Virus record (IMG/VR): IMGVR_UViG_3300034523_000298
Span: 1-33,186 of that record
From: a virus
Reading direction: 5' to 3' (one strand)
DNA length: 33,186 nucleotides
Shown: in pieces, positions 26,155-33,186 of the stretch
Position numbering within the stretch: the first letter of the stretch is position 1
Layout of the letters: each line of letters opens with the position of its first letter
Notes under the pieces: generated by a model
The model's input: only the letters and a program-made list of their open reading frames with translations
Databases searched by the model: none
What the model was told of the DNA's origin: nothing
Position numbers and translations under genes: made by a program

Positions 26155-26910
26155 ATGGGCACTCAACTCAGAGCCAAGGGCACCAATGTTGAAGGGATCG
26201 CCAAAGTATATGCGGCGTCTGTACGGCGAGGGTTGCGCGGAATTCACTTCCTGAACACCGACGGGAGCAAGGCGGCGCACAACTACGCGCCCGGGAATCA
26301 GGGGGCTCAGGGTTCAGTCGCTGGCACCCCGACCATCACTGCCGGCTACGCATCGTGCAAAGGCCGGCTGAATTACATCCAGTCTGCCATCGCGGAAGCT
26401 GACGAGATGACAGTTTTCTGCATCGCTCGCAGCTCGGATACCGGCCTAGCCAGCGCGACCCGGCCGTCGTTTCTCGGCACGCAACAAGGTACCGCCACCG
26501 ACGGGGGAATATCTGACGGCATCAACATGTACATGACTTCGGCTGGCGGCGGCATGGTGTCCTTCACCGCAGCGTATGGGCATAACGACGTTGACCGCAC
26601 AAACCTTGTTTGCTCGCTGTCCTGGGCAAACATCACCAGCTTCGCCCTGTTCGTGGCGACGATCAGCTCGGCCGGCATCACTTTCCGTGACGTAACGAAC
26701 AACAGAACGAACACCGTCACTCCCCCCGTCGGCCTGCCCCGACGTCGATCACTGAACAAGCTTCGCCTCGGCAGTGCATTCAACTCGTTCGATGGTTTCG
26801 GTGATGTTGCGCTGGTCCAGGTCCATGACGTGGTACTTACTCCAGACGAGATAGCGGCGCAGGTTGCCCAGCATCGCCGGTACGCCTTGAGCAAGGGCAT
26901 AGCCGTCTGA
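26155..26910 (+). CDS. Tail fibre-associated protein with lectin-like fold
   Basis: The 251-residue protein has the composition and spacing of a concanavalin/LamG-type beta sandwich: MTVFCIARSSD, FLGTQQGT, MYMTSAGGG, LRLGSAFNSFDGFGDVALVQVHDVVLTPDEIAAQV. The last segment is the usual end of phage LamG-like domains. A strong AAGGAG site lies 8 bp upstream. It is probably translated with the spike and may bind the same polysaccharide. No enzyme motif is seen, and it could alternatively be a chaperone or accessory fibre. Confidence 0.65.
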   Translation: MGTQLRAKGTNVEGIAKVYAASVRRGLRGIHFLNTDGSKAAHNYAPGNQGAQGSVAGTPTITAGYASCKGRLNYIQSAIAEADEMTVFCIARSSDTGLASATRPSFLGTQQGTATDGGISDGINMYMTSAGGGMVSFTAAYGHNDVDRTNLVCSLSWANITSFALFVATISSAGITFRDVTNNRTNTVTPPVGLPRRRSLNKLRLGSAFNSFDGFGDVALVQVHDVVLTPDEIAAQVAQHRRYALSKGIAV

Positions 26911-26932
26911 CCCCCCTTAACGTAATGAATTG

Positions 26933-26953
26933 GCCGCATCGAGCGGCTTTTTT
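26933..26953 (+). terminator. Terminator at the end of the tail operon
   Basis: GCCGC-atcga-GCGGC is followed by TTTTTTG. From here to 27160 no supported gene is seen; a short open frame lacks a start signal and family resemblance. Confidence 0.8.
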
Positions 26954-27160
26954 GTTCCTGTCATTTGATCGTCTGTCGCGTGCGGCTTTTTTGCGGAGCG
27001 TCTTCCGTCAAATGTGCTCGGACAATTTGCGAGGTGGTAGCAGATATTCCATACGGATGTGACGCCCAGGAATACCAACGCCACCGCGCGGTTCTCGCCG
27101 AGTCAGAGATCCAGTTGGCCGCCAAAGACCTTCGGGGGGAATCTTGGTATGGGGCCAGAG

Positions 27161-27928
27161 CTAGACAATCCGGGGTTGAGGCCCGGGTGCAGGCATCTCT
27201 GTAGTTGTCATTTCACGAATTTGCTCTAGCAGCCTAATGTGTGTATCTAGATCTCGGCGTGGAGGTGTAGGGTTTTGATTAACACTAAATACTATAAGAG
27301 TGTAAATGGATGACTGGTAGCCATTACTTAGGTCTAGTCCTTTTGTGGAGTTAAAGTACTCATTCATTAGCGCTTCATTAATGCCGGTCTCCAGTTTTCC
27401 TCTGATGGCCTCTTCGTTTGACTTGATGAGGTTTAATACTTGTTGTCCGTAAGATATCGTTTCAGCTCTAGTAGGGATGTAGCCTTTGTGAACTGCTCTG
27501 TTTCTCAGGTTTACCGATTTCTCATTCAGTAGTGGTGGCGGGCTTCCAATGCTGATTGTGAATAGCGATATGTATGCGCCGAGTTGCCTCTCGGATGAAT
27601 TGGAAAGTGGCTTCCACATGCTCTCAATTACTTGCTCTGGTATTTTTTGCTCGTAAAGCACCGACCTTATAAGTATTTCGTAAAATCGTTCTAGCGCAGC
27701 GGCAAATGAGGATATGGCCTCTCGGTAGTACCCATCGGCTGCCGCATGGCATCCGAGTTCAAATAGAAGCTCGAACTTTGATTGCTGCATTCCGATTGTT
27801 GTTTCGTGCCCATGTTCGCACTTTAGTGAGTAAACTTGAGTGTCTTGTATGTTGATTTTGTAGTATTTGTTTGGTCTGTGTAATTTGCAAAGTGGAAAAC
27901 ATTTTATGCAGAACACTTCGAGCTTCAT
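27161..27928 (-). CDS. Zinc-ribbon plus HEPN-like protein, candidate defence or exclusion gene
   Basis: The 255-residue protein has an N-terminal zinc-ribbon-like part (Cys7-x2-Cys10, Cys14, then Cys37-EHGH) and a helical domain with FAAALERFYEILIRSV near 75-90. The motif LRNRAVHKG (Arg142-Asn143...His147) is the R-N-x3-H form of the RX4-6H signature of HEPN RNases. HEPN domains act in toxin-antitoxin, abortive infection and anti-phage systems. The gene is clearly A+T-richer than the tail genes and on the opposite strand, so it was acquired separately and can be expressed in the lysogen. The start at 27928 has GGAAGGA 6 bp upstream; a longer start at 27985 lacks this. RNase activity is inferred. 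Confidence 0.65.
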   Translation of the reverse strand: MKLEVFCIKCFPLCKLHRPNKYYKINIQDTQVYSLKCEHGHETTIGMQQSKFELLFELGCHAAADGYYREAISSFAAALERFYEILIRSVLYEQKIPEQVIESMWKPLSNSSERQLGAYISLFTISIGSPPPLLNEKSVNLRNRAVHKGYIPTRAETISYGQQVLNLIKSNEEAIRGKLETGINEALMNEYFNSTKGLDLSNGYQSSIYTLIVFSVNQNPTPPRRDLDTHIRLLEQIREMTTTEMPAPGPQPRIV

Positions 27929-27979
27929 CGTATCCTTCCAGATTTTGTTAAGGTCGGTCTGCCGACTGTCATAGATAAA

Positions 27980-27992
27980 GTGCATTATGCAC
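27980..27992. promoter_or_regulatory. Palindrome upstream of the HEPN-like gene
   Basis: GTGCATTATGCAC is a 6-bp-arm inverted repeat about 52 bp upstream of the chosen start, in an A+T-rich patch between two divergent genes. A further short inverted repeat GTCGG/CCGAC lies near 27954-27966. It may be an operator, and on the minus strand CATAAT within it could be a -10. Confidence 0.35.
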
Positions 27993-28048
27993 TGATTAGA
28001 CTAACGCGAGCCTGCCATTGTCAGGTATTTCTTTGCGTGGAGAAGACT

Positions 28049-28273
28049 ATGCCTTGCTTCGTTACTAACATGAGCAATAACTTTGACCCCGTCGACCAGC
28101 TCGGGTGCGCCACCAAGGAAGCAGCAAACGCAGCAGTGGGTGAGCTGCTGGTAGCACAACCTGCAGAAATCGTGCGAACTCCCGAAGTGCTCAAGCACTA
28201 CACCGCTGAAGTCGCTGTGACCTCTAGTGAAGCTGAGTCCTTTGCTCCTGTCGATCAGCAGGAGGTGGCTTGA
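28049..28273 (+). CDS. Small protein preceding the endolysin, function unknown
   Basis: The 74-residue, acidic protein (MPCFVTNMSNNFDPVDQLG...) has no membrane segment or known motif. GGAG lies 6 bp upstream of ATG 28049, and the stop overlaps the endolysin start (TGATG), so the two genes are translationally coupled. The upstream in-frame extension to 27980 lacks a ribosome site. Confidence 0.62.
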   Translation: MPCFVTNMSNNFDPVDQLGCATKEAANAAVGELLVAQPAEIVRTPEVLKHYTAEVAVTSSEAESFAPVDQQEVA

Positions 28274-28911
28274 TGCTCATTACCGAGCAGCAACTGCTGC
28301 AGATCCTCCCCAAAGCCCGCCCAGTTGCGGGCATTTTTTTGCCTGCGCTAAACCGGGCCATGGCGCGCTACAGGATCGATAGCCGGGTGCGCCAGGCGGC
28401 GCTCCTGGCCCAAGTTGGGCACGAGTCGGGGCAGCTGCGGAACCTGGTCGAGAATCTGAACTATGGCGCCGAAGGCTTGGCCGCCACCTGGCCCGGCCGG
28501 TACCGATGCGCCGACGGCAAGCCGAACGCGAAGGCCGTCAGCCTGGCGCGCAAGCCGGAAGCGATCGCAAACGATGCCTATGCCGGTCGCAACGGCAACA
28601 TTCACCCGGGTGACGGCTGGCGCTTTCGCGGGCGCGGCCTGTTGCAGGTCACTGGACGGGCGAATTATGCCGCCGCCGGCGCGGGCCTGGGCCTGCCGCT
28701 GGAAGCTGAGCCGCAACTGCTCGAGCAGCCGGAGCACGCTGCCATGTCCGCCGCCTGGTGGTGGGCGAAGCATGGCCTGAACGAGCTGGCCGATGCCGGC
28801 CGCTTCCAGGACATCGGAAGCATCATCAACACCGGCAAGACCGGCCGCGCGCCGCACGGGGCCGCTGAGCGCAAGGCACTGTATGATCTGGCGCTGCGGG
28901 TGCTGGCGTGA
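28273..28911 (+). CDS. Endolysin, glycoside hydrolase family 19
   Basis: The 212-residue protein is a GH19 (chitinase-like) muramidase-type lysin. The catalytic region is LLAQVGHESGQLRNLVENLNY, with Glu51 as probable acid and Glu60 in the second conserved site. WRFRGRGLLQVTGRANYAAAG follows near 115-135, the strongest family signature. It has no signal peptide, so it needs the holin at 6640 to reach the wall. It is followed by the spanin pair, overlapping by 4 bp. Confidence 0.92.
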   Translation: MLITEQQLLQILPKARPVAGIFLPALNRAMARYRIDSRVRQAALLAQVGHESGQLRNLVENLNYGAEGLAATWPGRYRCADGKPNAKAVSLARKPEAIANDAYAGRNGNIHPGDGWRFRGRGLLQVTGRANYAAAGAGLGLPLEAEPQLLEQPEHAAMSAAWWWAKHGLNELADAGRFQDIGSIINTGKTGRAPHGAAERKALYDLALRVLA

Positions 28912-32472: not shown

Positions 32473-33186
32473 ATGACTGAACTGTTCACCCTCCCGCTTA
32501 TACAAGCTATCAGTGACTGGCAGAACGGTGGTGATGTAAAGACTGCCAGGGCGCGAGGACTGGCCTTGGAGCGTGAGTGTGCGGCGCTTCCAAGTGAGTT
32601 CAAGGTCGTCTCATTAGCCTGTTTTCGGAGAGTAGCGCTCAAAAAACGAAGCATCTGGGATCTCCTTGGGGAGCAGGCGCTGCCCGAGAAGATTTCCTCC
32701 TGGACATTTGACCTCGGTCTTGCGAAGGGCTTCAAGAACGGGGTTCCACCCAAGGGGGCGGGCCAGCAAGGCGTTATTTTCGAGAGAGTGCCCCATTCAG
32801 AAGAGATTATTGTCAATCTGTGGAAGCTGTTTCGCGACCCGGACTTCAAAGCGGCAGTGAAAAAGCATAAGCGCTCGGTAGATAACTTTCCGCAGGGAAT
32901 GGGAAGGTACGAGAATACCCAATCTGAGGTCGTCCTCAAGGTCGAAACGCTGTCCCAAGACCATATCTATTCTCTGGGCGGGCACAGCGGATCGCGTGAG
33001 GAGATCCTTCAGCTACTCATTGCTAAGGTTTGCGGAGCTCACGCAACGGCGAGTCAAAAGGATTGGCTTAGGTGGGTAATGTCGGTAGGCCCAAATGTTA
33101 CGGGCCCTAAGTGGCTGAGCCCAAAAGCGACTCGGATTATATTGAACAGTGTCGAGCCCGAGATAGCTAATCTAAGGAAGGGTTAG
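32473..33186 (+). CDS. Unrecognised protein encoded next to the truncated integrase
   Basis: The 237-residue protein is mixed helical and charged, with no signal peptide or membrane span. Features include LACFRRVALKKRSIWDLLGEQ, VIFERVPHSEEIIVNLWKLF, a Gly-rich SLGGHSGSREE near 173, and WLRWVMSVGPN near 202. I recognise no family or catalytic motif. It is divergent from the integrase, with only 50 bp between the two starts, and its ribosome site is weak. It ends exactly at the window edge with TAG, so possible partner genes are out of view. Its base use differs from the phage late genes. An accessory cargo gene is likely. Confidence 0.6.
   Translation: MTELFTLPLIQAISDWQNGGDVKTARARGLALERECAALPSEFKVVSLACFRRVALKKRSIWDLLGEQALPEKISSWTFDLGLAKGFKNGVPPKGAGQQGVIFERVPHSEEIIVNLWKLFRDPDFKAAVKKHKRSVDNFPQGMGRYENTQSEVVLKVETLSQDHIYSLGGHSGSREEILQLLIAKVCGAHATASQKDWLRWVMSVGPNVTGPKWLSPKATRIILNSVEPEIANLRKG

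Follow-up and report, generated by a model that had tools for sequence, protein, structure and literature searches.

A predicted zinc-ribbon-like HEPN protein of PHROG 19381, carried as cargo by a Pseudomonas-type prophage and a candidate single-gene defence effector

What a temperate phage gains from an A+T-rich gene lying on the opposite strand between its tail and lysis genes is the question raised by an IMG/VR virus record of 33,186 bases, the whole of which was analysed and is here called the window. The head and terminase block of the record is approximately 79% identical to Pseudomonas phages, which points to a Pseudomonas-type temperate phage.

The gene and its place in the prophage

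An earlier note, made from the letters alone, had described the gene as A+T-rich, encoded on the opposite strand between tail and lysis genes and carrying CxxC...CEHGH and RNRAVH motifs. This description was confirmed: the gene is on the minus strand, has a GC content of 0.436 against 0.596 for the whole window (only 0.5% of the window's 768-bp windows are as low) and encodes C7-I-K-C10, C37-E-H-G-H41 and R142-N-R-A-V-H147. The ATG at 27928 is preceded by GGAAGGA at proper spacing and the start lies six residues ahead of the first cysteine in nearly all homologues, so that 27928 is the likely start of a 255-aa protein, which fits the earlier numbering of Arg142 and His147. The features of the locus are as follows.

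26155-26910: tail-like gene on one flank (phrog_4390, E 5e-32)
26932-26948, plus strand: terminator-like stem-loop with T-run that follows the tail gene and marks the cargo's left edge
26961-28009, no strand: inferred cargo insert with the HEPN gene, from the limits of homology to prophages lacking the gene
26965-27204, plus strand: ORF overlapping the 3' end of the HEPN gene in antisense
27161-27985, minus strand: ORF from the first ATG, 274 aa
27161-27928, minus strand: zinc-ribbon-like and HEPN protein of PHROG 19381, 255 aa, from ORF, Shine-Dalgarno site, conservation, phrog_19381 match and model
28010-28026, plus strand: terminator-like stem-loop, right edge of the cargo
28049-28273, plus strand: small ORF, 74 aa, a lysis-side gene outside the cargo, from 71-aa homologues beside the endolysin
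28270-28911: endolysin on the other flank (phrog_181, E 8e-78)

Homology between the window and one related prophage (L186) stops at 26960, just past the tail-gene terminator, and homology to four others (L130, L131, L133 and L136) resumes at 28024-28032, which sets the cargo at approximately 26,961-28,009. The HEPN gene is absent from the examined prophages sharing the endolysin or the tail gene, and in related Pseudomonas prophages its place is taken by different A+T-rich genes, among them a GtrA/GtrB/GtrII operon, a gene for an O-acetylase-type acyltransferase-SGNH protein and several of unknown kind. The gtr and O-acetylase genes are of kinds that alter the phage receptor. The best explanation is that a prophage of Pseudomonas type carries the HEPN gene as solitary cargo (a moron). 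Position and distribution support the proposal that it is prophage cargo with a role in defence or exclusion, of which the defence itself is a role that we infer.

The tail-lysis slot of Pseudomonas-type prophages is a hotspot for A+T-rich cargo (L129, L135, L139, L185, L187 and L188). One prophage carries two low-GC genes there (L187:5358-7040). The first product is a membrane protein of 289 aa; the second, of 264 aa, has a helical part and, at its C-terminus, CxxC clusters. The pair may be another exclusion system, one in which the order of helical and zinc parts is reversed. A different prophage carries a 310-aa minus-strand gene (L188:5295-6224) whose product faintly resembles DUF2971 and the defence candidate PDC-S31.

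Two further elements of the locus were considered. A palindrome had been suggested as the control site of the gene; it is real and, as AGTGCATTATGCACT at 27979-27993, slightly longer than the 27980-27992 given before, but the window contains six perfect palindromes as large as this, which is chance level, and it is therefore no evidence of a control site. The antisense ORF at 26965-27204 has no match in phages and is probably a chance ORF or a remnant. No tRNA was found in the window, and a sigma-70 promoter scan of the window found none, a result that says little. The ORF next to the integrase with which the record ends (32473-33186) matched nothing significantly in Pfam, PHROGs, PADLOC or NCBIfam.

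Fold, catalytic motif and N-terminal part

The AlphaFold2 model, made with a 97-row alignment, reached a pLDDT of 90.9 and a pTM of 0.88, and consists of a small beta domain with Cys/His ligands followed by helices at residues 51-64, 68-93, 98-108, 112-127, 136-148 and 154-175. The parts of the protein are as follows.

27404-27778, minus strand: HEPN helical domain, residues 51-175, from the model helices; PDB HEPN chains align over residues 48-181
27488-27505, minus strand: Rx4H motif R142-N-R-A-V-H147, predicted RNase active site, from its conservation in 97 of 97 homologues and its place at the end of helix 136-148
27788-27928, minus strand: zinc-ribbon-like domain, residues 1-47, with ligands C7, C10, C37 and H41, from conservation and the beta strands of the model

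Comparison with the PDB by VIA-align placed HEPN superfamily structures in all eight best positions (Z 9.8-6.0), ahead of a match of another fold at 4.2, on a scale where values below 13 between helical bundles can reflect a common arrangement. These structures included 4nqf (Z 9.8, 2.7 A over 117 residues), 2hsb (Z 9.6), 2q00 (Z 9.0), AbiV (Z 6.8), Csm6 (Z 6.1) and the toxin-antitoxin structure 7bxo (Z 6.0). Foldseek gave 2q00 a probability of 1.00 and 2hsb one of 0.90, with E-values above 0.1. Searches of the PDB by sequence, with the single protein or a profile, and a fold search of BFVD gave no matches.

An Rx4H motif alone would be a chance feature, and this one is meaningful because it is invariant in all 97 homologues. 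In the alignment of these homologues, from which conservation was counted, C7, C10, C37, E80, SERQ, G117, R142, N143, H147 and G149 are invariant and H41 is kept in 96. The invariance of SERQ is partly due to selection, as the pattern used for the genome scan was built around it, with R-N-H, E80 and the cysteines outside the pattern. In HEPN proteins, Rx4-6H closes helix 3 ahead of a loop to helix 4, the position after its arginine is polar (N, D or H), and helix 2 commonly but not universally holds an acidic residue, typically within Ex3[KR] (PMC3710099). The protein agrees with each of these rules: R142 to H147 close helix 136-148 (helix 3) ahead of helix 154-175, the polar residue after the arginine is N143, and helix 68-93 holds both the invariant E80 and E84xxx[KR]88, the latter in 63 of the 97 homologues.

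Weak profile matches of single members among the 97 go most often to HEPN models, with Csx1/Csm6 models matched by 21 members (best 5e-5), RiboL-PSP-HEPN (PF18735) by four (best 8.5e-5), and Cas13a, CARF-HEPN and MAE_28990 among the others; the match of the window protein itself to HEPN profiles is weak (E 0.14). A match to TPR_2 (E 0.03) was rejected, being below cut-off and overlapping HEPN helices 1-2. The fold matches, the motif at the end of helix 3, the helix-2 acid and the weak HEPN profile matches are the grounds on which membership of the HEPN superfamily was accepted, and make it well supported as a prediction from model and sequence. The suggestion of a HEPN fold with a conserved Rx4H thus passed both the fold check (model and PDB matches) and the conservation check. 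Catalytically dead HEPN proteins exist (PMC3710099), but a dead protein acting by RNA binding only is highly improbable here, where every motif residue is invariant.

The N-terminal part was also expected to bind zinc. Its four Cys/His ligands form two pairs, CxxC...CxxxH, as in a zinc ribbon, and this pattern held up as invariant or nearly so. Residues 1-52 were modelled at a pLDDT of 77, and the best fold match of the N-terminus, the ZitP zinc finger 2nb9, is weak (Z 2.7). A classical zinc-ribbon fold is therefore likely from the ligands and weakly supported by fold, and the sensing role proposed for this part is a guess.

Spread of the family and its neighbours

The window protein matches phrog_19381 (E 1e-55), a PHROG listed as of unknown function. 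The protein stays below the cut-off of every Pfam and NCBIfam model, and no defence model of PADLOC 2.0.0 (2023) matches it up to E 10, so that the family looks like an uncharacterised HEPN family of a known effector kind. No paper on it was found in the literature; look-up by sequence was impossible and prior work under another name is conceivable. Patterns from the single protein had no matches in viral or genome contigs, unlike alignment-based patterns, which retrieved homologues from both. The homologues come from phages and plasmids, from viral contigs (32 loci) and from bacterial genomes (92 places), and include members at 38% in the SPbeta-like phages L4 (SPbetaL4, protein WIT27454.1) and L6. 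Phyla are mixed in the tree of the family, and copies from different families of bacteria can be 91-92% identical.

In unrelated phages the gene again stands alone, in other places and often on the strand opposite to the structural genes: beside the terminase (L018, L019, L021, L035, L044 and L045), beside tail genes (L017, L036 and L039) or beside lysis genes (L014 and L041-L043), the kinds of these neighbours being read from sequence and size. Its presence in phages, the SPbeta-like ones included, is what would be expected of a gene used in the phage's own lytic cycle, for host mRNA shut-off or counter-defence. In the window, however, the gene runs against the late operon with a terminator-like site on either side, it is missing from close tail and endolysin relatives, and chromosomal and plasmid copies are common, all of which make a lytic role improbable.

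No neighbour was found to be conserved with the family as a whole, which bears on a possible classical toxin-antitoxin pair, in which this protein would be the toxin and the antitoxin would be encoded by the small ORF at 28049 or by another neighbouring gene. Such a pair would agree with the fold shared with 7bxo, but a type II system would call for a conserved adjacent antitoxin, which the family lacks. The 71-aa homologues of the 28049 ORF adjoin the endolysin in L130, L131, L133 and L136, all of them without the HEPN gene, and the ORF had no match in the phage records searched. As it stays with the endolysin where the HEPN gene is absent, the earlier proposal of its product as antitoxin was rejected, and the toxin-antitoxin reading as a whole has very little probability.

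In bacterial genomes, among the genes adjoining it are those for a CBASS cyclase, for restriction enzymes and for other HEPN proteins as well as phage-defence candidates, an enumeration made with no control set of random genes, and also the housekeeping gene guaA. A member sits between guaB and guaA in Haemophilus (L066:2365-6196) and members adjoin guaA in two Bacillota bins (L109 and L113), so entry at the gua locus may be recurrent. In nine close pairs of the family dN/dS was 0.04-0.37, indicating purifying selection on the gene.

This strong purifying selection, with dN/dS values down to 0.04 that are low for a defence gene, and the members beside housekeeping genes such as guaA make a cellular role possible, in which the HEPN RNase would serve the cell or lysogeny in RNA processing, stress response or regulation and not in phage defence. 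In keeping with such a role, a predicted HEPN gene of the Salmonella Gifsy-1 prophage has been considered as a source of the RNA damage by which the RNA repair operon is activated during the SOS response (PMC9879122). The patchy spread over phages, plasmids and phyla, and a slot common to exclusion-type cargo, fit conflict genes better, and a cellular role is accordingly judged unlikely.

As a separate observation, a plasmid copy of the gene in Methylobacter is split by an IS630-type insertion (L007:3518-5513), and another Methylobacter holds an unsplit copy (L081).

Proposed action and nearest counterparts

The role favoured here, with somewhat better than even confidence and by analogy with known effectors, is that of a single-gene HEPN endoribonuclease, expressed in the lysogen, which would stop growth upon infection by a rival phage. 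Lying against the late operon between two terminators, the gene may be driven in the lysogen by its own promoter. The protein would be kept quiet as a dimer with its HEPN active sites facing each other, as in other HEPN proteins. A product or process of the rival phage would then release its activity, probably through the side bearing the computed metal ligands, which is the least certain step. Given the computed motif and fold, R142, N143 and H147 would be predicted to cut cellular and phage RNA without metal. The outcome may be growth arrest or death before the rival phage is released, protecting sister lysogens as in the analogy with Tha.

Tha is a prophage HEPN RNase of S. aureus with the motif RNSIMH, the histidine of which is needed for defence; its trigger is the minor tail proteins of the phage that infects (PMC11087260). 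Like Tha-1 and Tha-2 (prophages 80alpha and phiNM2; PMC11087260), the window protein is a prophage-borne single effector candidate with a C-terminal HEPN domain and RNxxxH; Tha likewise acts in the lysogen and outside a classical toxin-antitoxin pair. The window protein probably works like Tha, on the strength of this analogy. In contrast, Tha-1 has 301 aa, lacks a discernible N-terminal domain and has an antisense overlapping inhibitor, ith. Comparison with the one sequence used, Tha-1 of 80alpha, revealed no kinship (hhalign probability 0.6%, BLASTP E 2.6), and no ith-like inhibitor gene was found, either as a family-conserved neighbour or as an antisense ORF with a phage match. The lack of sequence kinship and of an ith-like gene, together with the different N-terminus, is why the protein was not filed as Tha.

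Few Tha-like single-gene prophage HEPN effectors, in which one small protein senses a rival phage and stops the cell, are known. The present family is compact (approximately 250 aa), spans many phyla and has invariant predicted metal-binding and catalytic residues; being compact, conserved and widespread, with members on SPbeta-like phages for which a laboratory Bacillus strain serves as host, it makes the triggering of a one-protein system testable. The family would also add a defence candidate unnamed in Pfam, NCBIfam and the 2023 PADLOC. A broader version of the favoured reading, that of a phylum-spanning one-gene immune family in which direct recognition of a conserved phage product by the zinc ribbon would switch on the HEPN RNase fused to it, and which would move among phages, plasmids and the genomic islands of bacteria as distant from one another as Pseudomonas, Bacillus, Bacteroidota and Cyanobacteria, is offered tentatively and as less probable than a lysogen-expressed effector.

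Other HEPN families are more distant counterparts. HEPN proteins fused to zinc ribbons, DUF4145 among them, have the same combination of domains (PMC3710099), whereas the DUF4145 model is touched by only one of the 97 members (E 0.009) and no REase, helicase or TM fusion was seen in the PHROG 19381 family. RiboL-PSP-HEPN, MAE_28990 HEPN (PF18737) and Csx1/Csm6 HEPN share the Rx4-6H RNase motif and the HEPN fold, but their matches are weak, those to Pfam models lying below cut-off where shown. PHROG 19381 is the same protein family as the window protein, and the HEPN assignment is here added to that entry; without the CARF or L-PSP domain of the others, the family has a zinc N-terminus and a SERQxG motif of its own.
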